DNA from: Anaeromyxobacter terrae | GTDB lineage: Bacteria; Myxococcota; Myxococcia; Myxococcales; Anaeromyxobacteraceae | NCBI RefSeq assembly: GCF_022690685.1 | Contig: NZ_JALCYY010000033.1 | Location: 1 to 60,043 of the forward strand | DNA length: 60,043 nucleotides | Direction: 5' to 3' | Shown here: positions 4,121-33,660 of the stretch, piece after piece | Position numbering within the stretch: the first letter of the stretch is position 1 | Layout of the letters: every line of letters begins with the position of its first letter | The notes under the pieces: model-generated | The model's input: the letters and a program-made list of their open reading frames with translations, nothing else | What the model was told of the DNA's origin: nothing | The model's database searches: none | Made by a program: the position numbers and the translations under genes

Positions 4121-5386
4121 TCACTTGGCGCAGCGCGGGTTCGGGGCGACGCCGGCGGCGCTCGCGACGTCCTTCGGGAAGATGATTGGCGAGGCGCCGT
4201 CCGGCTGGTTCTGCTGCAGGACGAACGAGTTCTGCGCCTGCTGGCCGAACTCGGCCTTGAACTCGACCGTCCCGCCGGGCAGGAGCGACGGCACCTTCAT
4301 CGCCGCGAGCTTGGCGCGCACCGCCTCGCGGTCGACCTTGCCCGCCTGCTGGATGGCGGTGAACAGGACGCGCGCGCTCTCGTACGCGAGCGCCTGGAAC
4401 CACTCCGGCTCGCGCCCGCCGTACTTCGCCTTGAACGCCTTCACGAACTCCTGCGACGGGCCGGGCCTCGTCCCGAGCTGCGCGCTCCACCACACGCCGG
4501 AGAGGACGCAGTTCACGTTCTCCTGCCCGAGCGCCTGCACCGCGTCCTTCTCGCCGCCGCGCGCGCCGTAGCTCACGACCTTGTGGCACATCCCGTTCGC
4601 CACGTACTGACGGTGCATGGTGATGTAGTCGGGCAGGTGCGCGTCCACGAGGAACAGGTCCACGCCCGCGGCCTTCACCTTCCCGAGGAGCGCGCCGAAG
4701 TCGCGCGCGTTGAGCTCGAACGACTCGTCGACCAGGATCGGGTACGCGCCGCCGCTCTTCTGGGAGAAGTCGGAGATGCCCTTGCGGAAGTCCTTGCCGT
4801 GCGCGGTGTTCTCCCACACGAGCGCGATCTTCGCGGGCTTCGGCAGCTTCCCGGCCTTCTGCTGCTCGTCGATCCACTGCATCAGCGTCCCGCCGAGCAG
4901 CTCGACGGGAGAGATGAGGCCGAAGAGGTACTTGAACTTGCGCTTGTAGATCTTGGTCGCGCCGCCGCCGCCGTTCACGTACGGCACCCGGTTCTGCTCG
5001 GCGACCGTGCTCTGCGCCTCCACGAGGTGGCTCGCGTAGGTGCCGAGGAGGAAGTCCACCCGGTCGCTGTTCACGAGCCGGTCGGCGAGGCTCACCGCCG
5101 ACGCCTGGGTGCTCGTGTCGTCGAGGAGGAGGAACTGCACCGGCAGCTTCTTGCCACCGACCTCGAGGCCGCCGGCCTTGTTCACCTGCTCGAAGGCGAG
5201 GTCGTAGCCCTCCTTGAAGAACCCGCCGACGCGGGCCTCGGCGCCGGTGAGTGGCAGCGTCGCGCCGATCAGGATCTTGTCCTTGTCGGCGGCGGCCGCC
5301 GCGCCGGGCAGGGCGGCCGCCACGGCGAGGGCGGCGATCGCGAGGAGCAGCGGGGCGTACGGCCGGCGGTTGTTCCGGATGCTCAT
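4121..5386 (-). CDS. livK: Periplasmic substrate-binding protein LivK/HAAT type
   Basis: A 421-residue exported protein: basic N-terminus (MSIRNNRRPY), a hydrophobic core and an AAAA/AD cleavage region near residue 33. The mature part begins KILIGATLPLTG, the classic start of Peripla_BP_6 (Leu/Ile/Val-binding) proteins. A good ribosome-binding site (GGAGG, spacing about 6) precedes the ATG. It is the first gene of the operon livK-livH-livM-livG-livF-gntR. The ligand cannot be read from the sequence; the neighbouring acyl-CoA ligase hints at an organic acid rather than an amino acid. Confidence 0.92.
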   Translation of the reverse strand: MSIRNNRRPYAPLLLAIAALAVAAALPGAAAAADKDKILIGATLPLTGAEARVGGFFKEGYDLAFEQVNKAGGLEVGGKKLPVQFLLLDDTSTQASAVSLADRLVNSDRVDFLLGTYASHLVEAQSTVAEQNRVPYVNGGGGATKIYKRKFKYLFGLISPVELLGGTLMQWIDEQQKAGKLPKPAKIALVWENTAHGKDFRKGISDFSQKSGGAYPILVDESFELNARDFGALLGKVKAAGVDLFLVDAHLPDYITMHRQYVANGMCHKVVSYGARGGEKDAVQALGQENVNCVLSGVWWSAQLGTRPGPSQEFVKAFKAKYGGREPEWFQALAYESARVLFTAIQQAGKVDREAVRAKLAAMKVPSLLPGGTVEFKAEFGQQAQNSFVLQQNQPDGASPIIFPKDVASAAGVAPNPRCAK

Positions 5387-5418
5387 GGGCGCCTCCAGGG
5401 GCGAGGGGAGCCGCGTCT

Positions 5419-5437
5419 CCGTAATTATGGATTACGG
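5419..5437. promoter_or_regulatory. AT-rich inverted repeat in the livK / acyl-CoA ligase divergent promoter region
   Basis: Perfect 7-bp arms CCGTAAT and ATTACGG flank a 5-bp spacer TATGG. This AT-rich patch stands out in a roughly 70% GC setting, 33 bp upstream of livK and 95 bp upstream of the ligase ATG. Size and symmetry suit a dimeric regulator, most simply the GntR/FCD protein at the end of the liv operon. The role is inferred from position and symmetry only. Confidence 0.5.
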
Positions 5438-5531
5438 CTTCGCGGCAGGATGGCCCATCCGCAACGCGAAGATCCATCGGCGCCCCATCGGAGACCCGGG
5501 CGCGCCGCGGCGGGCTTTAGACTCCCGGGAC

Positions 5532-7025
5532 ATGCACCCGCTCCTCCCCGATCTCTCCGCGCGCGGCGGCCGCGTGGCGCTGCGCGTCATCGATTCCGGC
5601 GCCGGCGCCGCGAGGGACCCCGGCGCCGCCGCGCCGCGTCGCGGCGACGTGTCGTACGCCGACCTCGATCGCGCCGCGCGCGCCCACGCGGCGCGCCTCC
5701 TCGCCGACGGCGTCCGCGCGGGCGATCGCGTCGCGCTCTGGGCGACCCCAGAGCTCACGACGATCGCCGCCGTCGTCGGGAACGCCCTCGCCGGCGTGGC
5801 CACGGTGCCGCTCAACCCGGCGCTCGGCGAGGGCGAGCTCGCCCACGTGCTCGGCGATGCCGCGCCGCGTCTCGTCCTCGCGGCCGATCCCGCCCCGTTC
5901 CGCGCGCGCACGCCGGGGGTCCGCGGGGTCACGCTCGACGGCTCGCCCGCCTCGCCGCCGCCGCCGCGCCCGGACGACCCGCTCCTCGTGCTCTACACGT
6001 CGGGCACCACCGGCAAGCCGAAGGGCGCCGTCATCACGCACCGAAACGCCGCGTTCGACCTCGACGCGCTGGCCGGCGCGTGGGGGTGGACCGAGCGCGA
6101 CGTGCTCGTGCACGCGCTGCCGCTCTTCCACGTCCACGGCCTCGTCCTCGGCGTGCTCGGGGCGCTGCGCGTCGGGGCGTCGATCCTCCTCCTCCCCCGC
6201 TTCACGCCGGAGGGCGTCTGCGCGGCGATGGAGGGCGGCGGCACGATGCTCTTCGCCGTCCCGACGATGTACCACCGGCTCGCAGAGCACTGCGAGGCGA
6301 CGTCCGAGGACGCCCGGCGGCTCGCGCGCGCACGGCTCCTCGTCTCCGGGTCCGCGGCGCTGCCCGTCCGCGAGAACGACCGGCTCTTCCGGCTGTTCGG
6401 GCAGCGCGTCGTCGAGCGGTACGGCCTGACGGAGACGCTCATCATCACGGCCGCGCACCACGACGGCCCGCGCACGCCCGGCGTCGTCGGACCGCCGCTG
6501 CCCGGGCTCACGCTCCGCCTCGTGGACGACGCGCGGCGCCCGCTCGAGCCCGGCCCGGACGTCCTCGGCGAGGTGGCGGTGAAGGGTCCGACGGTGTTCG
6601 CCGGCTACCTCAACCGGCCGGACGCGACGGCCGCGGCGATGGACGCGGAGGGCTTCTTCTACACCGGCGACATCGCGGCGATCGGGCCGGGCGGCGAGGT
6701 GCGCATCGTCGGCCGGCGGGCCACCGACCTCATCAAGACCGGCGGCTACAAGGTCGGCGCGGGGGAGGTGGAGGCGGCGCTCCTCGAGCACGCCGCGGTG
6801 CGCGAGGCGGCCGTGATCGGGGTGCCCGACGAGGACCTCGGCGAGCGGATCGTCGCGTTCGTCGTCCCGGCCCCCGGCGCGGCGCCGCGGCCCGAGGAGC
6901 TCTCCGAGCACGTCGCCCGGCTCCTCGCGCCGCACAAGCGCCCGCGCGCGGTGCGGCTCGTCGAGAGCCTGCCGCGGAACGCCATGGGGAAGGTGCTGAA
7001 GAAGGAGCTCGCCGCGCTCGTCTGA
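5532..7025 (+). CDS. AMP-forming acyl-CoA synthetase, malonyl-CoA-synthetase-like
   Basis: The 497-residue protein starts at the ATG at 5532; the open frame extends upstream but overlaps the divergent promoter. P-loop YTSGTTGKPKG is at 155-165, the adenylate motif ERYGLTET ends near 302, the hinge region GRRATDLIKTGGYK lies near 394-407 and the catalytic C-terminal lysine lies in NAMGKVLKKEL near 482. LPLFHVHG near 197-204 and the short length resemble MatB/ACSF3 malonyl-CoA synthetases, which activate dicarboxylates. Such enzymes make acyl-CoA from acid, ATP and CoA. It diverges from the liv-gntR operon, and a FCD regulator beside a MatB-like ligase recalls the matR-matB arrangement. Exact substrate unknown. 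Confidence 0.85.
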   Translation: MHPLLPDLSARGGRVALRVIDSGAGAARDPGAAAPRRGDVSYADLDRAARAHAARLLADGVRAGDRVALWATPELTTIAAVVGNALAGVATVPLNPALGEGELAHVLGDAAPRLVLAADPAPFRARTPGVRGVTLDGSPASPPPPRPDDPLLVLYTSGTTGKPKGAVITHRNAAFDLDALAGAWGWTERDVLVHALPLFHVHGLVLGVLGALRVGASILLLPRFTPEGVCAAMEGGGTMLFAVPTMYHRLAEHCEATSEDARRLARARLLVSGSAALPVRENDRLFRLFGQRVVERYGLTETLIITAAHHDGPRTPGVVGPPLPGLTLRLVDDARRPLEPGPDVLGEVAVKGPTVFAGYLNRPDATAAAMDAEGFFYTGDIAAIGPGGEVRIVGRRATDLIKTGGYKVGAGEVEAALLEHAAVREAAVIGVPDEDLGERIVAFVVPAPGAAPRPEELSEHVARLLAPHKRPRAVRLVESLPRNAMGKVLKKELAALV

Positions 7026-16187: not shown

Positions 16188-16250
16188 CCGTGTCTGACGT
16201 CCAGGACGACGATGGCGCTACTGTCGGTGAATACCGGAAGTGACTTTCCG

Positions 16251-16485
16251 ACCTCGACCCCGACCTCGACCCCAACCTCGACCCCAACCTCGACCCCAAC
16301 CTCGACCCCAACCTCGACCCCAACCTCGACCCCAACCTCGACCCCAACCTCGACCTCGACCTCGACCTCGACCCTGACCTCGACCTCGACCTCGACCCCG
16401 ACCTCGACCCCGACCTCGACCCCGACCTCGACCTCGACCCCGACCCCGACCCCGACCTCGACCCCGTCGACCTCGAGACCTCGGC
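16251..16485. repeat. Tandem 6/12-bp repeat, C-rich on plus strand and G-rich on minus strand
   Basis: About 235 bp of repeats. The left half is a 12-bp unit ACCCCAACCTCG repeated about eight times; the right half mixes ACCTCG hexamers with ACCCCGACCTCG units. All variants keep a 6-bp period, so every frame stays open and simple Thr-Pro-Thr-Ser or Val-Glu-Val-Gly repeats appear in translation; I do not regard these as proteins. The repeat lies between the HNH gene start (16187) and the secreted-protein gene (16624); the rest of 16188-16623 shows no gene. The minus strand has regularly spaced GGGG and GG runs. Confidence 0.95.
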
Positions 16486-16623
16486 CCCTCACCCCGGCAC
16501 CAGGCGACGTACCGGGCGGTCCAGCGTCTCGTTCGAGCCACTCGGGCGTCCCTGTGGGGAGACCACGCCCCCCGCCGCGAAATATCAGAGGAGCAGCCGC
16601 GTACGTCGCTCCGGAGGTCGTCC

Positions 16624-19047: not shown

Positions 19048-22000
19048 GTGCCGAAGCCCCTCGCCGACGGCGTGTACGACCACCTGCTCGACGAGGCGCT
19101 CCGCGCGCTCGTCCACGACGCGGAGGGACAGCGCGCCGTCCACGTCGGCGATCTCGAGCCCGAGCGCACCCCGAGCTTCCTCGCCGCGCACTTCCGGCCG
19201 CTCCTGGAGCGGGTGCTGGAGGAGGTGCCGGGCGAGGACGACGAGCGGCAGCGGCGACGGGTGGAGATCCTGAACCGGCTCCTCGCCACGCTCGCCGACG
19301 CCGCGCGCGAACACTGCGGGGAGCTGCCGCTCGATCCCGACGCGACGGTCGTCACCGCCGCGCGCCACCTCCGCTCGGTCTGGCCGCGCGGCCCGCTCGG
19401 CGCCGCCCCCGAGGTCCGGCTCCCGGAGACGCCGCTCTCGGAGAGCGCGCTCCTCGTGAATGCCTCCGGCGAGCCGTCGCTCGGGCACGAGCTCGCGCGC
19501 GAGCTCGCGAGCGCAGATCGGGTGGACCTCCTCTGCGCGTTCGTGAAGTGGAGCGGGCTGCGCTTCGTGCTGGACGAGCTCCGGGAGCTGGTCGCGCGCG
19601 GCCGCCGGCGCGGCGAGGCCTGCCCGCTGCGCGTGTTGACGACGACCTACATCGGCGCGAGCGACGCGCGGGCCATCGAGGAGCTCGCCCGGCTGGGCGC
19701 CGAGGTCCGCATCTCCTACGACGCGCAGCGCACGCGCCTCCACGCGAAGGCGTGGCTCTTCCACCGCGCGTCCGGCACGCACACCGCGTACATCGGCTCG
19801 TCGAACCTCTCGCGCGCGGCGCTGCACGAGGGGCTCGAGTGGAACGTGCGCCTCTCCCAGCGCGACGCCGCGCCGCTGCTCGAGAAGTTCCGCCACGCGT
19901 TCGACTCGTACTGGGACTCGGACGAGTTCGTGCCGGTGAACCCGGACCGCGACATGGCGCGGATCCGGGCGGCGCTCGCCGCGCAGCGCGCGCCCGCCCG
20001 CGCCGACGGGGACGGCGCGACGGACGGCGCCCCCTGGCTCGCCGCGATCCACTTCGACCTCCGCCCCCACCCGTTCCAGGAGCCCATGCTCGAGGCGCTC
20101 CGCGTCGAGCGCGAGCGCGGCCACCACCGGAACCTCGTCGTCGCGCCGACCGGCACGGGCAAGACCCTCGTCGCCGCCTTCGATTACGCGCGCCTGCGCA
20201 AGGAGCTCCCTCGCGATCGGCTCCTCTTCGTCGCGCACCGCGAGCGGATCCTGACGCAGAGCCGCGCCGCGTTCGCGGCGGTCGTGCGCGACGCCTCGTT
20301 CGGCGAGCTCCTCACCGGCGACGCGAAGCCCACGGCGGGCACGCACGTGTTCGCGACCATCCAGTCGCTCGCGCGCGCGGACCTCTCGCGCGACCTGCCG
20401 CCCGACCACTTCGACGTGGTGATCGTGGACGAGTTCCACCACGCCGAGGCGCCGACGTACGACCGGCTCCTCGCGCACGTCCGCCCGAAGGTGCTCCTCG
20501 GCCTCACCGCCACGCCCGAGCGCCACGACGGCAAGGACGTGCGCCGCTGGTTCGACGGGCGGACCGCGTTCGAGCTGCGCCTGTGGGACGCGCTCGAGCA
20601 GGGGCTCCTCGCGCCCTTCCAGTACTTCGGCGTGAAGGACACGGTGGACCTCTCGGACGTCGCCTGGAAGCGCGGCTGGGGATACGACCGCGACGAGCTC
20701 TCGCGGCGCTACGTGACGAGCGGCGCCGACGCGCGCGTGCGGCTCGTGCTCCAGGAGGTGCACCGCCGCGTCGCCGACCCGGGCCGCATGCGGGCGCTCG
20801 GGTTCTGCGTGTCGGTCGCGCACGCCGAGTACATGGCGCGGATGTTCACCGAGAAGGGGCTCCCGAGCGTCGCCGTGACCGGCGACACGCCCGGCGAAGC
20901 GCGGGAGGCCGCCATTCGCCGGCTCGAGCGCGGAGAGCTCACGACGCTGTTCACGGTGGACCTCTTCAACGAGGGCGTGGACATCCCCGCGGTGGACACC
21001 GTCCTCTTTCTCCGGCCGACGGAGAGCGCCACGGTGTTCCTGCAGCAGCTCGGCCGCGGGCTTCGGCGCCACGCCGAAAAGCCCTGCCTCACCGTGCTCG
21101 ACTTCATCGGCAACGCCCGCCGCGAGTTCCGCTTCGACCGCCGCTTCAAGGCGCTCCTCGGCGGCACGACTCGCCAGGTGAAGGCGGCCATCGAGCAGGG
21201 CTTCCCGTACCTGCCTCCCGGCTGCGCGATGCACCTCGACCACCTCGCGACGCGCGCCGTGCTGGACAACATCCAGCACGGCATCGGCACCGGCGTGCAG
21301 TGGCTCTCGTCCGAGCTCGCCGCGCTCGGCATCGGCACGCCGCTCGGCCAGTTCCTGCGCGACGCCGGTGTCACCCTGAACGAGCTCTATGCGGACAACC
21401 GGAAGAGCTTCACTTCGCTCCAGGAGCGGGCGTTCGGGACTCCCGTCCTCGACGATGCTGCGCGCGAACTCCACGCACGCGCGCGCGCCGTGATGCACCT
21501 CAACGACCACGAGCGACTTGGCTTCCTTCGTCGCGTTGCCGGGGGCGCTCCGCTCGACGCATCCGAACCGCGCAACGCCCGGTTGGCGGCCATGACAGCC
21601 GCAGCGCTGCTGGACTGCAACCGCCCCGAGAGCGCAACCGCCGAGCTGGAACGGGCCAGAGCGCATTCGACATTCAGGAAGGAACTCGGCGAGCTGCTCG
21701 ACTTCCTGGAAGACGAGGCGAGAGACGCGACGTCACCGTGGCAGGACGGAACCCGGATCCGACACGTTCCGTTGCACGTCCACGGTCGTTATCGACAGGA
21801 CGAAGTGCTCGCCGCGCTCGACGCCCGGTCGCCCAAGGGCCTCCTGCCGCAGCTTCAAGGTGGCGTCTACCACGCTCCAGTCGAGAACGTCGACGTGCTC
21901 TTCGTGACGCTGAAGAAGAGCGAGTCCGGCTTCTCCCCGTCCACGATGTACCGCGACTTCGCGATGAGCCCGACCCGCTTCCACTGGGAGACGCAGAACA

Positions 22001-22233
22001 CGGCCCACCCTGGCTCCGGCGCCGGCCGTCGCTACCTCGAGAAGACCAGCACCGTGCTGCTCTTCGTCCGCGAGTACCGCAAGCAGCCCAACGGCGTCGC
22101 CGAGCCCTACTGCTTCCTCGGCCCCGCGACGCTCGAGTCCGCCTCCGGCGAGCGCCCGATGCAGATCATCTGGCGGCTCGAGCACCCGATGCCCGGGCAC
22201 CTGTACCAGCGGGCGACGCTGGCGGCGGGGTAA
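19048..22233 (+). CDS. PLD nuclease - SF2 helicase - DUF3427 protein
   Basis: A 1,061-residue protein from GTG at 19048. Residues 140-300 are a phospholipase-D-like nuclease domain with HAKAWLF (232-238) and GSSNLSR (250-256). Residues 340-690 are a superfamily 2 helicase: APTGTGKT (366-373), VIVDEFHH (458-465), GLTATPER (485-492) and QLGRGLRRH (about 666-674). The rest, with VLDFIGNARREFRFDRRF at its start, matches the DUF3427 region usually fused to this kind of helicase. Such fusions are frequent in defence and mobile islands and are thought to process nucleic acid. GC falls in the last 800 bp, approaching that of the convergent NTPase gene (stop-to-stop gap 46 bp). Confidence 0.88.
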   Translation: MPKPLADGVYDHLLDEALRALVHDAEGQRAVHVGDLEPERTPSFLAAHFRPLLERVLEEVPGEDDERQRRRVEILNRLLATLADAAREHCGELPLDPDATVVTAARHLRSVWPRGPLGAAPEVRLPETPLSESALLVNASGEPSLGHELARELASADRVDLLCAFVKWSGLRFVLDELRELVARGRRRGEACPLRVLTTTYIGASDARAIEELARLGAEVRISYDAQRTRLHAKAWLFHRASGTHTAYIGSSNLSRAALHEGLEWNVRLSQRDAAPLLEKFRHAFDSYWDSDEFVPVNPDRDMARIRAALAAQRAPARADGDGATDGAPWLAAIHFDLRPHPFQEPMLEALRVERERGHHRNLVVAPTGTGKTLVAAFDYARLRKELPRDRLLFVAHRERILTQSRAAFAAVVRDASFGELLTGDAKPTAGTHVFATIQSLARADLSRDLPPDHFDVVIVDEFHHAEAPTYDRLLAHVRPKVLLGLTATPERHDGKDVRRWFDGRTAFELRLWDALEQGLLAPFQYFGVKDTVDLSDVAWKRGWGYDRDELSRRYVTSGADARVRLVLQEVHRRVADPGRMRALGFCVSVAHAEYMARMFTEKGLPSVAVTGDTPGEAREAAIRRLERGELTTLFTVDLFNEGVDIPAVDTVLFLRPTESATVFLQQLGRGLRRHAEKPCLTVLDFIGNARREFRFDRRFKALLGGTTRQVKAAIEQGFPYLPPGCAMHLDHLATRAVLDNIQHGIGTGVQWLSSELAALGIGTPLGQFLRDAGVTLNELYADNRKSFTSLQERAFGTPVLDDAARELHARARAVMHLNDHERLGFLRRVAGGAPLDASEPRNARLAAMTAAALLDCNRPESATAELERARAHSTFRKELGELLDFLEDEARDATSPWQDGTRIRHVPLHVHGRYRQDEVLAALDARSPKGLLPQLQGGVYHAPVENVDVLFVTLKKSESGFSPSTMYRDFAMSPTRFHWETQNTAHPGSGAGRRYLEKTSTVLLFVREYRKQPNGVAEPYCFLGPATLESASGERPMQIIWRLEHPMPGHLYQRATLAAG

Positions 22234-22279: not shown

Positions 22280-24544
22280 TCATTTGCCCGCACTCCCGAC
22301 CCTACCTCGCACGGCGTCCAGGAATGCGCCAAAGCTACCTTGCGATGACTCGTCTAGCGCTTGAAGCTCCGTCATCTTCATGCCTAAACGGAACCTTCGC
22401 TGCTGACCGGAGCCCACGTAATCGACTTCTCGCACAGCCCCGGCGCGAACCAGCGCTGGAAGCACACGATCAACGAACTCGTTAGCCGCTTTCCCGGCCC
22501 GCGCCCTCAACGTCCCCTCGTTTAGCTCGGTCGCGCGCATGAACGCCTTCAGCATTCGTCGCGCAAGCACGAGATCCCCGTCCGCGCTGATCGGAGCGGG
22601 AGAAGCTGCAGGGAGGACGCCTTGCTGCTGGACTCGCACTTTGGAGTCCTGCAGCAGCGCAATAATCCGCCCAGGGTCGTAGGCGACCTCGTCGCCTCGG
22701 CAGACGCTCCGAACGACGGACTGCACGAACTCTGCACCAGTGTACGCTGCCCCGTCGTGGACCGTAACCCGCTCAAACTCGCAATCCCGGAACACGCACG
22801 ACTCCATGCGCGCAGGGAGGACGGTGGGACGGAAGTAGCATCTTTCGAACGTGACCCGCCGTATCTCAGGCACGTTGAGTGCGTCAGGAGGAAAGGTTAT
22901 ACGCTCGATGCATTCCCCGTCTGTCCAGATCGGCAACAACCGCGAAACGATAGCACCAGCGTTCTCGCGCGCAAACGACGCGCTGCCCTCTGCCTCGCAG
23001 CACTGCCCCAACGTTGCCAGAACGCGCTGAGCCGCAGTCGGGTCGCGGCGAACAATTGCCGCCGCCCCTTCAACGGCCATCGGAACCAGTGACCCTACCC
23101 GCAGGGAGGCACGAATGTCAGCCACACGCCCAGCCAACACGGCGTGCCCAATCGCTTCACCAAGGAAGAAGTATCTGAACTCTTCATGATCGAAAGCGAA
23201 CGACCGCCCATCACCGTTCTGCACTATTAGCGCGTGATGCCGCACCCTCTCCACAATCTGTCGAGCAAGGTCGGGACCTTTCTCGCGACCTTCGGCGTAC
23301 AACTCGGCGATAGAGTCCAGAACCGGACCCGAAAGCGCGTCAACGCGATTCTCCCACATTTCTTGAGCGATCATCGCCAGCAACTGATGATGCTCTTCGC
23401 GGGAGAGCAGAGGCTCTCGAGGCTCACCACTATTCGTGATCCACTTTTCGGTAGCCTCGCGATTAATGATGGCATCAACAAATTGCGGAAAGAAGTCTTC
23501 CGCGTGCGGCTCAAGGGTGCGCAGGAGCGCATCACGATCGCCAACATTTTCAGCGACATCGAGGAGCCGCTTCACCAGCACCGCGCGAGTCAACAGAGGA
23601 TGATCCGGCCCTAGGCGCGCAGAGACGTCGTCGTAAATTAGATCCGGCTGCTGCACGCCGCGTTTCGTCGCGTATCTGGTGAACTTGTCGCGATCCCACC
23701 TCAGAAGCGCTAACCGCGAAAACAGCACTGATGCCGACCCCAGAGCATCAAGCAATTTCGCCTGGGCGCGGGGATTCGTATATTCAAAGAACGCCTTTCG
23801 GGCGGCAATGAGCACCGTTCCCGACCTGTTGAGCAGTTGGATGAGGTTTCCGAGCGCCGACATTGCCTCGCCCGACGCGGTCTCAACAAACATCTCTTCG
23901 AAACCGTCAAGCGCCGGGACAACAACTCCAAGGCGCACCAACTCAAGAAACGCGTCATAGTACAGCAGCGAGAATCTGTACCTGTTCAGCAGTCCGCTCA
24001 CAATGACGTCATCAAGGCGCATAAACGGACGGCCGCCCAGCGTTACCGGGACAAGCAGCCAGTCCGACTCCTTGCGCTTGAATGCGTTCGCTTGAGCAAT
24101 TGCCATCTCATTGATGAGAGTGGTCTTGCCTTCCCCAGCGTCGGAGGTGAGATAGACAACGGACGAAGTGCCTGCCGGCCGCCGCGACAACAGATTGAGC
24201 GCCACCTGAGCCGCGTCATCCACGGTCCGCAACTCGTCGCCAGGCGCGGTCTCTACGTCGTCCAGCAGTTGAGCGCCCGGAGTAACGAAGGAAGGCTCCG
24301 GGTGCAGCGACTGAACGATTCGATCCGCAAGAAGAGGCAACCGAGCGACCCGGTGCGTGAGCCACCGCTCAGCGCTTAGCGTCTGGCCCCCCTCCTCAAC
24401 CCATACCGCTCCCTCACGGACGCTGAGAGCCGCCTCAACGAGTTCGTCATGCAGTTGCGCCAGCAACTTTCCCTTATCGATATTCACATCGGCGGGCCTG
24501 TCCGCGAACGCTGTCAGCACCTGCCGAAGCTCTTGAATATTCAT
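22280..24544 (-). CDS. STAND/NACHT-like NTPase with pentapeptide-like segment and C-terminal winged helix-like region
   Basis: A 754-residue protein. Residues 1-100 are a helical N-domain of unknown type. The P-loop is YLTSDAGEGKTTL (131-143; the first Gly of GxxxxGKT is Ser134). Walker B is VVPALDGFEEM (208-218), the hhhhDGxEE pattern of NACHT-class STAND ATPases, followed by VLIAARK (244-250), a sensor-like strand. FAFDHEEFRYFFLGEAI (449-465) matches the helix ending the NACHT winged-helix region. Residues 545-605 hold short repeats (RVTFERCYF, SCVFRDCEFERVTV) of the pentapeptide or beta-helix kind. Residues 655-725 look like a winged helix. GC is visibly lower than in the flanks. It follows the NYN nuclease after 3 nt, so it is surely co-transcribed with it. 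Confidence 0.82.
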   Translation of the reverse strand: MNIQELRQVLTAFADRPADVNIDKGKLLAQLHDELVEAALSVREGAVWVEEGGQTLSAERWLTHRVARLPLLADRIVQSLHPEPSFVTPGAQLLDDVETAPGDELRTVDDAAQVALNLLSRRPAGTSSVVYLTSDAGEGKTTLINEMAIAQANAFKRKESDWLLVPVTLGGRPFMRLDDVIVSGLLNRYRFSLLYYDAFLELVRLGVVVPALDGFEEMFVETASGEAMSALGNLIQLLNRSGTVLIAARKAFFEYTNPRAQAKLLDALGSASVLFSRLALLRWDRDKFTRYATKRGVQQPDLIYDDVSARLGPDHPLLTRAVLVKRLLDVAENVGDRDALLRTLEPHAEDFFPQFVDAIINREATEKWITNSGEPREPLLSREEHHQLLAMIAQEMWENRVDALSGPVLDSIAELYAEGREKGPDLARQIVERVRHHALIVQNGDGRSFAFDHEEFRYFFLGEAIGHAVLAGRVADIRASLRVGSLVPMAVEGAAAIVRRDPTAAQRVLATLGQCCEAEGSASFARENAGAIVSRLLPIWTDGECIERITFPPDALNVPEIRRVTFERCYFRPTVLPARMESCVFRDCEFERVTVHDGAAYTGAEFVQSVVRSVCRGDEVAYDPGRIIALLQDSKVRVQQQGVLPAASPAPISADGDLVLARRMLKAFMRATELNEGTLRARAGKAANEFVDRVLPALVRAGAVREVDYVGSGQQRRFRLGMKMTELQALDESSQGSFGAFLDAVRGRVGSAGK

Positions 24545-24547
24545 TCG

Positions 24548-25243
24548 TCACTCGCACGCGAAACGCTTGTAGTTCGGCTCGGAAGCCAAGTACCTGGCTG
24601 AATGCTTACGAGGGTTGACGGCGTGAAGGACGTTCGCGCCCTGCAAGGTCGCAAACCTGATCCCCGGCCACAAATCGTCATCTGACGACACAACACAGAT
24701 TGTGGACTCTGGCTGCGACGAAAGGTGTATCAGATCAGTCAGCATCATCGAATCGACAAGTTTCTGCTCTTGCCGATGAAGAACCTCGCTTAGCTGCGTC
24801 GTACACCCCGGCACGGTGCATTTGCGCTTCGAAACCAGCCCAAGAAGTGTCTTCATCGGGCAGCCCGCTTGCCCGCAGTCGAATTCGTTCTTGCCCTTCA
24901 AGCTCCCGAGATTATTGCGCGTCCGCAGAGTATGGAAAATGTGATTTTGCGGTTCGATTTCTAACGAATAGGCGAGCTCAGCCGAGACGACCGCGGTGCG
25001 ACGTGATCGCTGCTCTACCGGCACTAGCGCGGGAAAGTCGCGATCGATTTCCGCCATCAGCGCTTGGGCCAGGCGCGTGGGCTTGTTCTGTTCGTACCAG
25101 CCGCCATACAGGCGGATCCGGATCGAGCGGCGCGTCCCGGGGACGAAAGGACCGGCTGAATGGATCACCGTCTCTGCGACCCATCGCAGGTCATGGCGGC
25201 GGAAGTCGCGGACAAGATTATCGAAGTCGACCAGGACGTTCAT
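24548..25243 (-). CDS. NYN-domain (PIN-like) ribonuclease with four-cysteine insertion
   Basis: A 231-residue protein. MNVLVDFDNLV at the N-terminus gives Asp6, Asp8 and Asn9 of the NYN active site; IRIRLYGGWYE (41-51), KLVDSMMLTDLIHL (161-174, Asp164) and CVVSSDDDLWPGI (183-195, Asp188-190) complete the metal-binding set of the fold. Between them residues 123-147 hold CGQAGC and CTVPGC (C-x4-C, 13 residues, C-x4-C), a likely zinc-binding insertion not standard in NYN proteins. First gene of a two-gene unit: its TGA at 24548-24550 is 3 nt before the NTPase ATG. Low GC like its partner. Expected to cut RNA (tRNA or mRNA); the target is unknown. Confidence 0.8.
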   Translation of the reverse strand: MNVLVDFDNLVRDFRRHDLRWVAETVIHSAGPFVPGTRRSIRIRLYGGWYEQNKPTRLAQALMAEIDRDFPALVPVEQRSRRTAVVSAELAYSLEIEPQNHIFHTLRTRNNLGSLKGKNEFDCGQAGCPMKTLLGLVSKRKCTVPGCTTQLSEVLHRQEQKLVDSMMLTDLIHLSSQPESTICVVSSDDDLWPGIRFATLQGANVLHAVNPRKHSARYLASEPNYKRFACE

Positions 25244-25647
25244 GATTCGAACCTGGGATTTTCTCTCGACTTCACTCTTCGATCAACTCTAGTTCGCGGT
25301 GGCGCCCTCTCCGGCCAGACGCGAGGCGTAACGCGTGCGCGAGGCCTTCCTGACCGAGAGTACCGTGCCGAGGACCGACCGCCCACGGCGCGGCCCATCA
25401 CCCGCCATTCCACGTCGGCCACGACTCGGTAACGGTCTTCCGCATCCGTCCCCCACGTTGAGTAGAGGGCTCACGCTTCGAGCCGTCCAGTGTTCAGGGG
25501 GCAGGACACCCAGCGTCTCCCCGCTGATCACCCTCGGGCGGGTTCCGGACCTGCGCATCGACAGCTTTCGCGTCGCTGGTTACTATCGGTCCGGGCTCTG
25601 AATTACGCCCCGGTGACAGCTCTCGCGAGAGGTGCTCTCCTCGCCGG
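25244..25647. other. Intergenic region upstream of the NYN/NTPase unit
   Basis: 404 bp without a convincing gene. It must hold the promoter of the leftward NYN-NTPase unit. The short frames in it have no ribosome-binding site and no recognisable protein features. The first 20 bp contain AGGTTCGAATC on the minus strand, resembling a tRNA T-loop, but no matching stem or tRNA body is present. Confidence 0.5.
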
Positions 25648-26453
25648 GTGCCCGTGCCTCCCGATTACGTGCGGAACCTCCGTGCGCCTCTCACGGACGC
25701 CCAGCTCGCGCCGCTCGCGCCAGAGTGCCGTCTGGTCCAGTTCGGTGGCGCGATGTCGGGAAGCGACGTGAGGCGACTCGCGGCATTCCTGCAGAGCTCG
25801 CCCGAGGTGCCGTTTCGAATCTTCGGCACGGACACGGCGAGGGATCTCGACTTCCTGGAGCTCCTCGCCGGGCATCCTCGCATCCGGATCGATCTCCCGC
25901 TCCTGACGTCGCTCGATGGGCTCCGGCACCTGACGCCGGACATGGTCGAGCTCGGGATCGGGAGCACGAAAGCGCGTGTGTCCCTCCGGATCTGAGGCCG
26001 TTCATCCCGCTCTCGGAGCTCGAGTCCTTCACCCTCGGCCTGGGCGGGACCCGGAACATTCGCGACCTCTCGCGCGTGGGTGGGTTGCGCAACGTGGACA
26101 TCTTCAGGGTGCTCGGGCTCTCCGATGTCACCGTGACGTCCGAGCTTCCATGGTTGGAGACCCTGCGACTCGATTCATTGAAGCGGGTCACCGAGCTGCC
26201 CTCGTTCCGATCTCTCGAGCGGCTTCGCAGTGCCGTGGTGGTGGGGCTCTCCGTTCGGGACCTGACCTCGGTCAGCGAGGCGCCGAGCCTGGCGGAGCTC
26301 ATCTTCATCGGCCGAAGAGGTCTCTCGCCTGACGTTGCGCTGCCATTCGTGCGTCATCCTTCGCTCCGGAAGGCCACGTTCTCGCTCGGAGACGAGCGGA
26401 AGGATCGACGCGTGCGCGAGATGCTCGCGCTGCCGCCCGTGTTCGAGGCCTGA
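25648..26453 (+). pseudogene. Leucine-rich-repeat-like protein, broken by a frameshift
   Basis: Two overlapping frames together make one roughly 265-residue product. Part one (25648-25995, GTG start) runs VPPDYVRNLRAPLTDAQLAPLAPE through LDGLRHLTPDMVELGIGS and stops at TGA. Part two continues in a different frame from about 25980 with PDLRPFIPLSELESFTLGLG, then repeats of L..L..L..F.. (NIRDLSRVGGLRNVDIFRVLGL, LRLDSLKRVTELPSFRSLERL) to a stop at 26453. The units of about 21-22 residues look like leucine-rich repeats. A single indel near 25980-25990 (loss of one base or gain of two) would restore the frame; decay and sequencing error are both possible. Confidence 0.65.
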
Positions 26454-28610: not shown

Positions 28611-30314
28611 TCACCCCACCCTGACCGTCGCCAGCTCCGTCCCCTCGGCGTCCACCGCGTGGACCGCGCACGCGAGGCACGGATCGAAGGAGTGGATGGT
28701 GCGCAGCGCCTCGAGGGGCAGCTTCGCGTCCGCGATCGGATTCCCCACCAGCGCCGCCTCGTACGGCCCGGCCTGCCCCTTCCCGTCCCTGGGCCCGGCG
28801 TTCCAGGTCGACGGCACCACGGCCTGGTAGTTCTTGATCGCGCCGTCCTCGATGACGACCCAGTGCGACAGCGCCCCGCGCGGCGCCTCGTGGAACCCGA
28901 ACCCGCGCACCTCACCCTTGGGGAAGGTCGGCGGGTTGAACACCGCCGTGTCTCCCCGGCCGATGTTCTCGACGAGGAGCTGCCAGTGCTTCAGGGCGAG
29001 CTCGGCGAGGACCGCCGTCCGGATGGCGCGGGCGGCGTGGCGGCCGAGCGTGGAGTGGAGCACGGCCGGGGTGAGCTTGGCGCCCGCCACCGTCCCGGCC
29101 ACGTCGAGGCAGCGGTCGGCCCAGAAGCGGATGCGCGGGTGGCCGAGCGCGTAGCCGACGAGGACCTGCGCGAGCGGGCCGACCTGCATCGCCCTGTCCT
29201 GGAAGCGCGGCGACTTCACCCACGAGTACTTCCCCTCCGGCTGCCAGTCCTGGACCTTCGGGACGGTCTCCTCCGCGAACGGGCTCTTCTGCCAGTCACC
29301 CTCGTAGAACGAACGCGCGATCGACTCCGTGACGTTGTCGCGGAAGTACGGATCGGTGAACGAGGTGAATGCGCGCGCCGAGGAGAGGTCCCCGGCCATG
29401 ATCGTCCCGCCGGGCAGGTCGAACTTCGTCCCGGCGGCGTCCGTCGGCAGGTCGGGGACGGAGAGGTAGCTCGTCACGCCCGCGCCGTGGCGCAGCCAGT
29501 CGGGGTACATGCCGGCCACCGCGCAGACGTCGGCGAAGTACGCCTGGTGCACGAACGCCTGCACCTCCTCGAGCAGCGTCTTCACCTGGTACAGCTTCTC
29601 CATGTTGAGGGCGGCGGGGCTGTCCAGGTTGATCGCGTTCGCGACCCCGCCGACGGCGAGGTTCTGGATGTTGGGCGTCTTGCCGCCGAGGATCGCGACC
29701 GCCTGGTTCGCCTTGCGCTGCACGTCGAGCGCCTGCAGGTAGTGCGCGACCGCGAGGAGGTTCACCTCGGGCGAGAGCCGCATCGCCGGGTGGCCCCAGT
29801 AGCCGTTCCTGAAGATCCCGAGCTGGCCCGCCTTCACGAAGCCGTCGAGCTTCGCCTTGACGGCCGCGAGCGCGGCGCGCGAGTTCCCCGGCCAGGACGA
29901 CAGGCTCCCGCCGAGCGCCGCGGCCTTCGCGGGATCGGCCTCGAGCGCGCGCGTCACGTCCACCCAGTCGAGCGCGGAGAGCTGGTAGAAGTGCACCACG
30001 TGGTCGTGCAGCGCGTGGGCGGCGACGAGCAGGTTGCGGATGAGCTGCGCGTTCAGCGGGATCGGGAGCCCGATCGCGTTCTCGACCGCGCGCACCGACG
30101 CGATCGCGTGGACCGTCGTGCACACCCCGCAGATGCGCTGCGTGAACACCCACGCGTCACGCGGATCGCGGCCCTTCAGGATGAGCTCCATCCCGCGCCA
30201 CATCGTGCCGCTCGACCACGCCTTGCGGACCGCGCCACCGTCCACCTCGATGTCGATGCGCAGGTGCCCCTCGATCCGCGTGACCGGATCGATCGTGATG
30301 CGCTGGCCCGTCAT
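28611..30314 (-). CDS. hybC: Group 1 [NiFe]-hydrogenase large subunit HybC
   Basis: A 567-residue catalytic subunit starting at the ATG at 30314. The N-terminal nickel motif is RICGVCTTVH (Cys62, Cys65); the C-terminal one is DPCLACAVH (Cys546, Cys549, His552). The 15 residues after His552 are the extension that a maturation endopeptidase removes after nickel insertion. FDPCLACAVH is typical of Hyb-type (group 1c) uptake hydrogenases. The subunit pairs with HybO and reaches the periplasm with it. Its ATG overlaps the hybB stop by 4 nt. No maturation protease or hyp gene lies in the window. Confidence 0.97.
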   Translation of the reverse strand: MTGQRITIDPVTRIEGHLRIDIEVDGGAVRKAWSSGTMWRGMELILKGRDPRDAWVFTQRICGVCTTVHAIASVRAVENAIGLPIPLNAQLIRNLLVAAHALHDHVVHFYQLSALDWVDVTRALEADPAKAAALGGSLSSWPGNSRAALAAVKAKLDGFVKAGQLGIFRNGYWGHPAMRLSPEVNLLAVAHYLQALDVQRKANQAVAILGGKTPNIQNLAVGGVANAINLDSPAALNMEKLYQVKTLLEEVQAFVHQAYFADVCAVAGMYPDWLRHGAGVTSYLSVPDLPTDAAGTKFDLPGGTIMAGDLSSARAFTSFTDPYFRDNVTESIARSFYEGDWQKSPFAEETVPKVQDWQPEGKYSWVKSPRFQDRAMQVGPLAQVLVGYALGHPRIRFWADRCLDVAGTVAGAKLTPAVLHSTLGRHAARAIRTAVLAELALKHWQLLVENIGRGDTAVFNPPTFPKGEVRGFGFHEAPRGALSHWVVIEDGAIKNYQAVVPSTWNAGPRDGKGQAGPYEAALVGNPIADAKLPLEALRTIHSFDPCLACAVHAVDAEGTELATVRVG

Positions 30315-31528
30315 GATGCCGCTCCTTCCTGGAGGCCGGCCGGCGCGCGCTCTGGCTCGGTGAGGCTCACGCCGGCGAGGATCGGGAACCGCCGCACCGC
30401 GACGATGTAGACCATCGTCTCGGTGGCGATGAAGCCGAGGGTGATGAGGATCTCTCCCAGCGAAGGGAAGTACCGCCAGCCGTGGCCCGGCTGGAACGCG
30501 ACCAGGAACGCGTCGATCCGGTAGAGCGCGCCGCCGGCGAGGGCGAGGAGCGCCGCCTGGAGCTGGGTGGCCGGGCTCGCGTGGACCCACTGCTGCAGGA
30601 AGAGCCCCGCCGCGGAGAGGAGGAGCAGCGTCTCCGCCCAGAAGAAGAACGACAGCGTGCCGGAGGTGACCGTGAGGCCGAGGCGCCCGGCGCCCATGAG
30701 CCCGGCGAACCGCACCGCGACGAACACGAGGAGCACGCCGGCGATGAACACGCCGAGGGAGCCGAGCAGCCGCGTCTCGAGGGGCCGCCGGAACGCGACG
30801 TTCGAGAAGATCGTCTCGAAGTACAGGACGGCGTAGCCCATGCCGAACGCGGTGAGGAGGAACAGGAGCGGCAGCGCCCCCGTGTGCCACAGCGGGTGCA
30901 CCTTCGTCCCGGCGACGACGAGCAGCGACCCGAGGCTCGACTGGTGCATCGTGGGGAGTACGAGCCCGAGCGCGATCACGAACGGCAGCGCGCGCGCGAG
31001 CCGTGGCAGCCAGCGCGCGGCGAACGCCTGGCGCCGCGGGTGCTCCACCGTGATCCAGCGCTCCAGCAGGGCCGGCGAGAGCTCCACGAGCAGCACCGCC
31101 AGGTACGCCATGATGCAGAGCGCGACCTCGAGGAGGATCGAGCTCGTGTTCCAGCGCCACGGCATGACCGGCACCTTCCACAGCGCCCAGTAGCGGCCGA
31201 CGTCGAACATGACCGCGATGCCCGCGACGGAGTAGCCGAGCGCGCTCGTCAGGATCGCGGGCCGGACGAGCGGGTGGTAGCGGCCGCGGTTCAGGACGTA
31301 GACGAGCAGCGCGATGGCGTACCCGCCGCTCGCGAGCCCCGTCCCCACCACCACGTCGAACGCGATCCAGAGCCCCCACGGATAGCCGTCGTTCAGCGCG
31401 GTGACCGCGCCGAGCCCCTGCGTGAACCGCACGACGCCGACCGCCGTCGCCGCCGCCCACAGGACCAGCATGAGCTTGAAGGTCGGCGTGAGGAGCCGTC
31501 CTCCCACCGCGCGCGCCTCGGTCGTCAT
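30311..31528 (-). CDS. hybB: Hydrogenase integral membrane subunit HybB (NrfD/PsrC family)
   Basis: The real protein starts at the ATG at 31528 and has 405 residues; the far longer frame upstream is antisense noise. It has about ten hydrophobic helices with NDGYPWGLWIAFDVVVGTGLA, a WRWNTSSILLEVALC segment, LPTMHQSSLGSLL and YRIDAFLVAF, all HybB/NrfD landmarks. It passes electrons between HybA and the quinone pool. It is coupled to hybA (ATGA overlap) and hybC. A second HybB-like gene is at 33775-34980. Confidence 0.95.
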   Translation of the reverse strand: MTTEARAVGGRLLTPTFKLMLVLWAAATAVGVVRFTQGLGAVTALNDGYPWGLWIAFDVVVGTGLASGGYAIALLVYVLNRGRYHPLVRPAILTSALGYSVAGIAVMFDVGRYWALWKVPVMPWRWNTSSILLEVALCIMAYLAVLLVELSPALLERWITVEHPRRQAFAARWLPRLARALPFVIALGLVLPTMHQSSLGSLLVVAGTKVHPLWHTGALPLLFLLTAFGMGYAVLYFETIFSNVAFRRPLETRLLGSLGVFIAGVLLVFVAVRFAGLMGAGRLGLTVTSGTLSFFFWAETLLLLSAAGLFLQQWVHASPATQLQAALLALAGGALYRIDAFLVAFQPGHGWRYFPSLGEILITLGFIATETMVYIVAVRRFPILAGVSLTEPERAPAGLQEGAAS

Positions 31529-32406
31529 CGCTCGCCCTCCCCGCCTCCGCCGGCGCGCCGGTTGCGCCAGGTGACCCACGCGAGCGCCCCGAAGAGCACC
31601 ACCGGCGCGACGAAGCCCTGGTAGATGCCGTGCTGGATGGTCTCGCCGAGCGCGGGCACCGCCTCCGACCCGAGCGCCGGGAGGCCCATCGCCGTGAACG
31701 GCACCGCCGAGAGCACGAGCACGCCCGTGCCGCCGCCCTCGCGCTCGCCGTACACGCCGCCCTGGTAGCGCCCCGGCTCGGCCTCGAGCCGCCGGTGCGC
31801 CTCGGCCCGCAGCTCGGCGCGGGGCCCGAACACCACCGCCTCGCGCGGGCAGGCCTCGGCGCAGGCCGCGCCCTTGCCCTCGCGCCAGCGGTGCCGGCAC
31901 AGCTCGCACTTCACGATGCGCGGCGTGGCCGACGACCACTGGAAGCGCGGCACGTTGAAGGGGCAGGCCACCTGGCAGTAGCGGCACCCGACGCAACGGC
32001 TGACGTCGTACGCGACGACGCCGCGCTCGCCCTTGTGGAGCGCGCCGAGCATGCACACCGAGACGCAGGCGGGATCCGCGCAGTGCATGCACTGCGCCTT
32101 CACGAACGCGCCGTCTGCCCCGTCGCTCGTGCGCTTGATGACCGTGAGCGTCCGGTCGTTGAGGTCGATCGGCGCGTCGTAGGGGACGCCGTCCACGAGC
32201 TTCACGTCCTCGGGGAGCGAGTTCGCCTCGCGGCAGCGCACGGTGCAGGCGCGGCAGCCCACGCAGCGGGTCGAGTCGAAGAGGAGCCCGAGGTCGTCGT
32301 CGTGCGGCGGCCTCGGGGCGCGGGCCTCCGCGGGCGCGGGGGCCGCGGCGAGCGCGGCGGCGCCGCCGAGCGTCCTGAGGACGGTGCGGCGGGAGACGTT
32401 CGGCAT
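31525..32406 (-). CDS. hybA: Hydrogenase 4Fe-4S ferredoxin subunit HybA
   Basis: A 293-residue periplasmic iron-sulfur protein. Residues 5-30 are a twin-arginine-like signal (SRRTVLRTLGG). Four cluster motifs follow: CVGCRACTVRC, CMHCADPACVSVC, CVGCRYCQVAC and CELCRHRWREGKGAACAEAC. A C-terminal hydrophobic helix (GFVAPVVLFGALAWVTW) anchors it, as in Hyb-type HybA. It links HybO to HybB. It starts 3 nt after the hybO stop and overlaps hybB by 4 nt. Confidence 0.95.
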   Translation of the reverse strand: MPNVSRRTVLRTLGGAAALAAAPAPAEARAPRPPHDDDLGLLFDSTRCVGCRACTVRCREANSLPEDVKLVDGVPYDAPIDLNDRTLTVIKRTSDGADGAFVKAQCMHCADPACVSVCMLGALHKGERGVVAYDVSRCVGCRYCQVACPFNVPRFQWSSATPRIVKCELCRHRWREGKGAACAEACPREAVVFGPRAELRAEAHRRLEAEPGRYQGGVYGEREGGGTGVLVLSAVPFTAMGLPALGSEAVPALGETIQHGIYQGFVAPVVLFGALAWVTWRNRRAGGGGEGER

Positions 32407-32409
32407 GGC

Positions 32410-33519
32410 CTACCCCTCCCTCGGCGGTTCCTTGGGCTCGTCGTGCGCGAGCTTGCGCGAGGAGACGTAGCCCGCCGCGGCGAGACCGCCGACGACGAGC
32501 CCCGCCACGCCCGCGGAGACGGCGCTCACCTCGCCGCGCTCCGGCGCGATCCCGGGGTACGCCATCGGCCCGGTCGGCTTCTGGACCTCGACGGTCGTGT
32601 GGAGCGGGACGCGGAACGCGATCTCCTGCTCCGTGCAGCCGACGCACGGGTGACCGATCCCGATGGGCCAGGCGCCGGGCACCTCGCAGAACGGGAGCAG
32701 CGAGCAGTTCGCGTGCGTCTGGGGCCCCTTGCAGCCGAGCTTGTAGAGGCACCAGCCGTTCCGGTGCCCCTCGTCCCCGAACGCCTTGGCGAACCGGCCG
32801 GCGTCGAAGTGCGGCCTGCGCGGGCAGTCCTCGTGGATGACGCGGCCGTAGGCGAACTTCGGCCGGCCCTTCCCGTCGAGCGCGGGGAGCGTGCCGAAGG
32901 TCGCGAACTGGAGCACGGTGCCGAGGAGGTTGTACGGGTTCGCCGGGCACCCCGGCAGCGTCACGACGGTCCTTCCCTCCAGCACCTCCGGCGCGCCGGT
33001 CGCGCCGGTCGGGTTCGGCGCGGCCGACGGTACGCCGCCCCACGACGCGCACGAGCCGATCGCCACGATCGCGCCGGCCCGGCCCGCGACGGTGCGCGCG
33101 ATCTCGAGCGCCGTGCGGCCGCCGATCATGCAGTAGCGCCCGCCCTCGCGCACCGGGATGGCGCCCTCGATGACGCACACGTACTTGCCGTCGTTCTCCG
33201 CCATCGCCTTCGCGAGCGCGTCCTCGGCCTGGACGCCGGCCGCGGCGAGGAGCGTCTCGTGGTAGTCGAGCGAGATGAGGTCGAGGATGAGCGCCGCGAC
33301 GTCGGGGTGGCTCGTGCGCAGGAGCGACTCGGTGCAGCCGGTGCACTCCTGGAAGTGGAGCCAGATGACGGAGGGCTTCTTGCCCTTCGCGATGTCCTCC
33401 GCCATCGCCTCGCCGGCCCACGCCGGCAGGCCCACCGCGGCCGCGGCGGTGGTGCAGATCTTCAGGAAGTCTCGCCGTGACGGCGAAGAGGGTCCCGCGA
33501 CCGAGGTCGGGTGCGGCAT
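32410..33519 (-). CDS. hybO: [NiFe]-hydrogenase small subunit HybO
   Basis: Starts at the ATG at 33519 with AGGAGG 5 nt upstream; 369 residues. A Tat signal SRRDFLK (14-20) is followed by a hydrophobic stretch and AWAGEAMA. Cluster ligands: CTGCTES (59-65), a Cys in GSCASWGG and TLPGCPANP, then HEDCPRR, GWCLYKLGCKGPQT, ANCSLLPFC and GHPCVGC for the three clusters. A C-terminal helix (VSAGVAGLVVGGLAAAGYV) anchors the protein. First gene of hybOABC; gene order equals that of E. coli hydrogenase 2. Confidence 0.96.
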   Translation of the reverse strand: MPHPTSVAGPSSPSRRDFLKICTTAAAAVGLPAWAGEAMAEDIAKGKKPSVIWLHFQECTGCTESLLRTSHPDVAALILDLISLDYHETLLAAAGVQAEDALAKAMAENDGKYVCVIEGAIPVREGGRYCMIGGRTALEIARTVAGRAGAIVAIGSCASWGGVPSAAPNPTGATGAPEVLEGRTVVTLPGCPANPYNLLGTVLQFATFGTLPALDGKGRPKFAYGRVIHEDCPRRPHFDAGRFAKAFGDEGHRNGWCLYKLGCKGPQTHANCSLLPFCEVPGAWPIGIGHPCVGCTEQEIAFRVPLHTTVEVQKPTGPMAYPGIAPERGEVSAVSAGVAGLVVGGLAAAGYVSSRKLAHDEPKEPPREG

Positions 33520-33660
33520 CGCGCCTCCTTCCCGCGGGCATCCGCGGACGGGTGCGATGATGGGCGCTGTTTTCTGACGCCCACCTTGACCTCCGTCATG
33601 CGACGCAAAGATCGCGCGCACGCCTTGCGTTCGCTCGTGATTCCGAGATGTTGGTCATCG

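Follow-up and report, generated by a model that had tools for sequence, protein, structure and literature searches.

How might a bacterial NLR-like switch protein act through an effector that is not part of its own chain? The question is raised by two adjoining genes of Anaeromyxobacter terrae, which encode an NYN-family nuclease and an NTPase of the NACHT/STAND type and lie in a stretch of 60,043 nucleotides (contig NZ_JALCYY010000033.1; this whole stretch is called the window below). NLR-type immune switches connect animal, plant, fungal and bacterial immunity. Because of the folds and motifs of the two proteins, the coupling of their genes, the pattern of variability along the NTPase and the genomic contexts of the pair, we read it as a sensor-switch with an effector in trans. 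It is probably a horizontally mobile two-gene anti-phage (or anti-mobile-element) module, in which a NACHT sensor would activate a separate NYN ribonuclease.

A coupled gene pair of low G+C content

The two genes are arranged as follows:

24548–25243, (−) strand: NYN-family nuclease, 231 aa; first in the unit
22280–24544, (−) strand: NLR-like NACHT/STAND NTPase, 754 aa; second in the unit

The stop codon of the nuclease gene and the ATG of the NTPase gene are 3 nt apart. Both open reading frames (ORFs) and their spacing had been proposed in an initial annotation made from the sequence alone, and they are as it described. It had also called the unit AT-richer than its neighbours, which is the case: the G+C content of the unit is 59.5%, against a mean of 74.0% (standard deviation 1.8, minimum 69.3%) for the rest of the window cut into 2964-bp steps. 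At third codon positions the G+C fraction is 0.67–0.70 in the two genes and 0.94 in a neighbouring gene. Promoter and terminator tests gave uninformative output.

Motifs and predicted folds

The motifs and predicted domains of the NTPase, with invariance judged across an alignment of 11 homologues, are:

24122–24145, (−) strand: Walker A SDAGEGKT, residues 134–141; A136, G137, G139, K140 and T141 invariant
23894–23920, (−) strand: Walker B VPALDGFEE, residues 209–217; D213, G214 and E217 invariant
23165–23200, (−) strand: NACHT-type helix FAFDHEEFRYFF, residues 449–460; F451, H453 and F456 invariant
24290–24544, (−) strand: predicted N-terminal alpha/beta domain, residues ~1–85; predicted local distance difference test (pLDDT) ~90
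23105–24214, (−) strand: predicted NACHT/STAND core with helical and winged-helix part, residues ~111–480, from motifs, model and homologues
22679–22924, (−) strand: pentapeptide-repeat beta stack, residues ~541–622, seen as beta rungs in the model
22283–22579, (−) strand: putative C-terminal winged-helix-like domain, residues ~656–754, from model secondary structure and a GSGQQRRFRLG wing motif

The homologues are full-length; identity is 34–48%, and 23% for one divergent member. The P-loop stretch YLTSDAGEGKTTL (residues 131–143), the DGFEE segment (residues 213–217) and the F.F.H..F.YF helix (residues 449–460) thus lie where the initial annotation had placed them, and their key residues do not vary. 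Its assignment of the protein to the NACHT class also held. The window NTPase alone falls below every Pfam cut-off (best, nSTAND_NTPase5 at E 0.0096), and PF05729 (NACHT) is not found in it; three of the 11 homologues match that family, with a best E of 1.6e-8. In the structural model, which has a pLDDT of 80, the top match in the PDB was NLRC4 (E 1e-9). By Z score, NLRP3 and NOD2 reached 13–13.5 over 335–367 residues, with a large root-mean-square deviation (rmsd), and ORC/Cdc6-type AAA proteins behind them. Template-modelling scores were low because whole chains were compared, and the resemblance therefore concerns the NACHT core rather than the entire protein. We assign the protein to the NACHT class since its homologues match PF05729 and its core is predicted to have the NLR-type NACHT fold.

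Conservation falls along the chain. The nucleotide-binding part is the least variable (mean identity 55%), whereas identity is 21–33% across the last 270 residues, the pattern expected of a switch protein whose sensor part diversifies. The N-terminal alpha/beta domain has a mean pairwise identity of 36% and is a candidate adaptor towards the NYN protein. No nuclease, TIR or SIR2 domain was detected in residues 1–110 by Pfam, in the model or in the homologues. After the core comes a variable helical part (residues 481–540) and then the pentapeptide stack, among the most divergent regions with a mean identity of 27%; Pfam pentapeptide repeats occur in 10 of the 11 homologues, the NTPase profile matches MfpA-type structures, and the stack is a candidate sensor or scaffold. 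The same repeats explain a resemblance to HalA of the Hailong system, membership of which we reject: the match (E 0.0017, 17.6 bits against a cut-off of 250) covers residues 562–598, with pentapeptide repeats alone shared, and the match of the NTPase profile to HalA is explained likewise.

For the nuclease, conservation was assessed in 12 homologues:

25226–25228, (−) strand: NYN catalytic Asp D6 (LVDFDN, beta-1); invariant
24752–24754, (−) strand: NYN Asp D164 (EQKLVD); invariant
24674–24682, (−) strand: NYN Asp triplet D188–D190 (SSDDDLWPGI); invariant
24803–24877, (−) strand: Cys insert C123-C128-C142-C147, a putative zinc ribbon in the NYN domain

That the NYN active-site aspartates are retained, as the initial annotation had claimed, is confirmed by the whole active-site set (D6, N9, D164, D188, D189 and D190), which is invariant, as is an RLYGGW motif. 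Three cysteines of the insert are invariant and the fourth is present in at least 90% of the homologues; the pattern follows the first half of the NYN motif set and precedes the last, and it suggests a zinc-binding ribbon. Pfam matches the window ORF to PF01936 (NYN) at E 3.7e-6 and 27.9 bits against a cut-off of 24.2, over residues 159–219 only, and 10 of the 12 homologues match the same family. Searches of the PDB by sequence gave nothing meaningful for either single protein, and the NYN profile matched no PDB chain. A Foldseek search with the AlphaFold model of the nuclease found no PDB match at E 0.001 or better. When the model was re-aligned with VIA, the NYN domain of MARF1 (5yaa) ranked top, with Z 11.0 and rmsd 3.1 over 138 aligned residues; 2qip, a bacterial protein of unknown function, was second (Z 9.4), and ExoIX third, well behind at Z 7.0. 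With no significant Foldseek match, it is the VIA ranking, the Pfam match and the motifs on which we place the protein in the NYN family, and the model points to a PIN-like/NYN fold. The single-protein structure prediction proposed with the initial annotation thus gave NYN and NLR NACHT folds as best matches. The nuclease would be a metal-dependent RNase, with RNA as its likely substrate.

Pairing, mobility and genomic context

The NTPase is carried by 15 distinct loci in Myxococcota, Bacteroidota and five IMG/VR virus contigs. One protein, from a 3.7-kb contig of a Clostridiales metagenome-assembled genome (L002), is identical to that of Petrimonas (L003); it was treated as likely contamination, and the two were counted once. 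Besides the window, the 195 Myxococcota genomes searched yielded two with a full-length relative; the 395 Bacteroidota yielded seven, among which L031 is the divergent member at 23% identity. A nuclease gene of the same NYN subfamily lies directly upstream of the NTPase gene in all 14 loci that could be read, with spacings from an overlap of ~10 nt to a gap of ~13 nt; in the fifteenth (L014) the contig starts at the NTPase, leaving the upstream side unreadable.

Searches with the nuclease led back to the same places. The seven Bacteroidota genomes with a strong NTPase match are exactly the seven with a strong match to the NYN profile (~200 bits or more, except for one copy truncated at the end of its contig, which scores 61.8). 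In Myxococcota both searches find G000, G087 and G098 only, with the NYN above 285 bits, and among virus contigs the NYN profile returns only those already found through the NTPase. The remaining hits in Bacteroidota and Myxococcota reach at most 32 bits and are confined to the shared NYN motif region. Co-occurrence in the sampled genomes is therefore complete in both directions. The initial annotation had named two outcomes as fatal to its proposal, homologues that are mostly solitary, or NYN residues that vary together with a different fold, and neither was observed. Between the two proteins, the pairwise distance matrices show a correlation of r = 0.86 (0.77 without an outlier), a value reached in none of 5000 permutations. 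From the consistent pairing and the correlated distances it follows that the two genes move together, across phyla, and evolve together.

Two classes of hits were set aside in these searches: weak NYN matches in Bacillota and Myxococcota (at most 32 bits, positions 129–224 only), which are generic NYN/PIN proteins, and most of the 82 Bacteroidota matches to the NTPase profile, which are short pentapeptide matches at profile positions ~510–670. A search of E. coli genomes with the DNA of the L016 pair gave no match. A branch that has diverged further, L031/L049, has identities of 23% (NTPase) and 22% (NYN); it lies beside a type I restriction locus and suggests a wider superfamily. Two copies look damaged, by decay or sequencing error: L016 has an apparent frameshift in the NYN gene (5286–5998) with the NTPase intact, and L004 a premature stop in the NTPase (8726) with the NYN intact.

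Next to the pair in the window is an intact-looking restriction gene:

19048–22233, (+) strand: PLD-helicase-DUF3427 type IV restriction enzyme (mREase_IV), PADLOC E 1.5e-244; convergent neighbour, not a component of the unit

The same gene stands at the same site in G036, a complete genome of the same genus without the pair. There an unoccupied site is flanked by the restriction gene and the next gene along, both retained, and 647 bp of unrelated sequence replace ~4.0 kb of the window that include the pair; homology ends at 22231 and restarts at 26226. The NTPase was not found in any of the remaining eight genomes of the genus, of which G036 is one, so that one of nine carries it. The site just downstream of the mREase_IV gene is a variable one.

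Elsewhere the pair adjoins the Druantia gene DruE (L046) or a type I HsdR and a GajA/AriA-like ATPase (L049), and on one phage contig (L013) it lies ~2 kb from PD-Lambda-2_B. Directly upstream of the pair on that contig is a two-gene element (4183–5074), presumably a DUF4065/Panacea-like antitoxin with its small partner, and the region is possibly a defence cluster within a phage. In L016 the pair is flanked by tail-fibre-assembly genes, and one side also has a Gin-like invertase and a tail sheath gene; we take this to be the P2 Z/fun moron region. The published P2 defence hotspot, gpA-gpQ, is a different site (PMC9122126). Further copies lie among tail genes (L014), on a contig with tail and integrase genes (L015) and between integrases (L017). 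In most copies the AT content exceeds that of the flanking DNA. The unit had been taken for a transferred cassette, a view upheld by its AT-richness, by the occupied and unoccupied sites in the window and G036 and by its carriage in prophages. The temperate-phage copies suggest a use in competition between phages.

Proposed function, known systems and alternatives

In the mechanism that we propose, the NLR-like NACHT switch protein would be kept inactive in the uninfected cell. An infection cue would be sensed by its variable C-terminal half, that is, by the helical part, the pentapeptide stack and the winged helix; ATP-driven oligomerisation would then recruit or activate the zinc-ribbon NYN ribonuclease made from the other gene, probably by way of the conserved N-terminal domain of the NTPase. 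Cleavage of RNA by the NYN protein would lead to growth arrest or abortive infection. More tentatively, the pair could be a bacterial analogue of an NLRC4-type inflammasome, which would sense phage through its pentapeptide/winged-helix C-terminus and assemble through its N-terminus with the trans-encoded RNase; we judge this version slightly less likely than not.

Several observations weigh against a defence module of this kind. The unit is rare: within two phyla, ~2% of genomes carry it. Neither the window proteins nor the L016 NTPase had a match in collections of plasmid and phage records; at that sensitivity the unit is absent from those records, not from phages, as IMG/VR carries it. The AlphaFold model of the NYN protein is of moderate quality (mean pLDDT 69.9), and its Cys insert is of low confidence. 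Residence in defence islands, a check proposed with the initial annotation, was found in part: a recognised defence gene lies near three of eight chromosomal loci (the window, L003, L004, L045, L046, L048, L049 and L050), a raw count over the part of the neighbours that was scanned, with no background rate.

Neither PADLOC 2.0 nor NCBIfam holds an equivalent pair; PADLOC gave no match for the window NTPase or NYN protein and none of relevance in the 11 homologues. Searches of the open full-text literature turned up no description of an NYN-STAND/NACHT pair; subscription papers and most preprints lay outside this search, and a prior description is possible. Among the closest known systems are other STAND systems. 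Like bNACHT proteins (PMC12169576), the NTPase has a central NLR-type NACHT module and a variable C-terminal part, and like their clade 14 it has no detected fused effector; unlike bNACHT proteins, it has a pentapeptide stack, a putative C-terminal winged helix and a conserved N-terminal alpha/beta domain, and it is always accompanied by a separate NYN gene. Avs and TIR-NLR systems, including those of P2/P4 hotspots (PMC9122126), share the STAND ATPase switch and carriage by prophages or satellites, but they have a fused N-terminal effector (TIR, SIR2 or nuclease) and C-terminal repeats such as TPR, where the pair has an effector in trans and pentapeptide repeats. With no effector in the same chain, the pair is neither an Avs nor an effector-fused bNACHT system. 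The initial annotation's remark that known STAND immune proteins usually carry the effector in the same chain fits Avs; it has exceptions in the clade-14 bNACHTs, which have no discernible effector (PMC12169576), and in the CARD-NLR systems, which use separate effector proteins (PMC13236601). The latter (LypABC/Lysobacter) resemble the pair in combining an NLR-like protein with separately encoded partners and effectors, but the pair has two genes only, with an NYN nuclease as effector, and the unit encodes neither a protease nor a gasdermin. By analogy, the pair would work like the switches of bNACHT, Avs and CARD-NLR systems, but without the CARD-NLR partner set.

Other systems resemble the nuclease or the two-gene plan. 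The type III-B CRISPR-associated NYN of Bacteroides fragilis is likewise an NYN-type RNase serving an immune system, with Mn2+-dependent cleavage of single-stranded RNA (PMC11346440), but its partner is a CRISPR complex, whereas the window NYN has an NLR-like ATPase partner and a Cys4 insert. DefensePredictor DS-5 is a validated two-protein system in which a PIN-type RNase and its partner are both needed (PMC13092281); that partner has DUF5830/AcrIF4-like domains and no NACHT. PARIS (AriAB; PMC9122126) is also mobile and made of two genes, an ATPase sensor and a separate effector, but its AAA ATPase is a different one, its effector is toprim-like and its proteins are unrelated to the pair.

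The gene order, nuclease first and larger partner second with translational coupling, is also that of a toxin–antitoxin-like pair, in which the NYN protein would be an RNase of constitutive toxicity, bound and held in check by the NTPase until infection frees it; prophage carriage and the damaged copies L016 and L004, as expected of costly genes, fit this too. Antitoxins are usually small, however, as in type II systems, and the partner here is a 754-aa ATPase with an intact ATPase site and an NLR domain layout. The intact NYN beside a truncated NTPase in L004 further argues against strict NYN toxicity, unless the stop is a sequencing error, and we regard such a pair as unlikely. Quite unlikely, too, is a non-defence unit for RNA processing or regulation, a STAND transcription-factor-like ATPase with an RNase that would serve the host or mobile elements. 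It would account for the putative winged helix and for the chromosomal loci without defence neighbours, and the B. fragilis NYN has been proposed to trim CRISPR RNA (PMC11346440); the patchy occurrence within the genus, mobile carriage and restriction and Druantia neighbours nevertheless fit defence better than housekeeping. A direct-acting complex, in which the NACHT ATPase merely guides the NYN protein to phage nucleic acid in the manner of restriction and without abortive infection, could draw on the type IV restriction gene adjoining the site and on the pentapeptide stack (a DNA-mimic fold in MfpA/Qnr) and winged helix, which could touch DNA or DNA-binding proteins. We think this very improbable: the NLR-like architecture indicates regulated assembly, and the CRISPR-associated NYN that has been characterised acts as an RNase (PMC11346440).

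If the sensor-and-effector reading is right, NYN RNases would become effectors dedicated to an NLR-like sensor in bacteria, and NLR-triggered RNA decay would be a type of immunity not described before, common to Myxococcota, Bacteroidota and temperate phages. With sensor and RNase in separate chains, the two genes would offer a tractable model of how an NLR licenses an effector in trans. MCPIP-1 is one NYN RNase of animal antiviral immunity. Another is KHNYN, which acts with ZAP (PMC6615859).

Some minor features of the searches and the window remain to be listed. A ninth neighbourhood (L051) holds an ORF of 358 aa that weakly matches a Pycsar cyclase (7.6e-12); it was not counted as a defence gene. 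Upstream of the unit, repeat pieces of ~50–80 bp (25280–25620) are matched at several places in genomes of the same genus; we rejected this repeat (25.3–25.6 kb) as part of the system, its own genome holding one further copy only. Just beyond are leucine-rich-repeat-like ORFs, degenerate or split between frames (25632–26453, (+) strand), inside which homology to G036 restarts (26226). Between two genes at 16218–16500 lies a low-complexity tandem repeat, whose frames encode TSTPTSTP- or VEVGVEVG-type runs, and 28611–33541 on the (−) strand reads as a NiFe-hydrogenase operon with a large subunit, an NrfD-like membrane protein and an Fe-S subunit.

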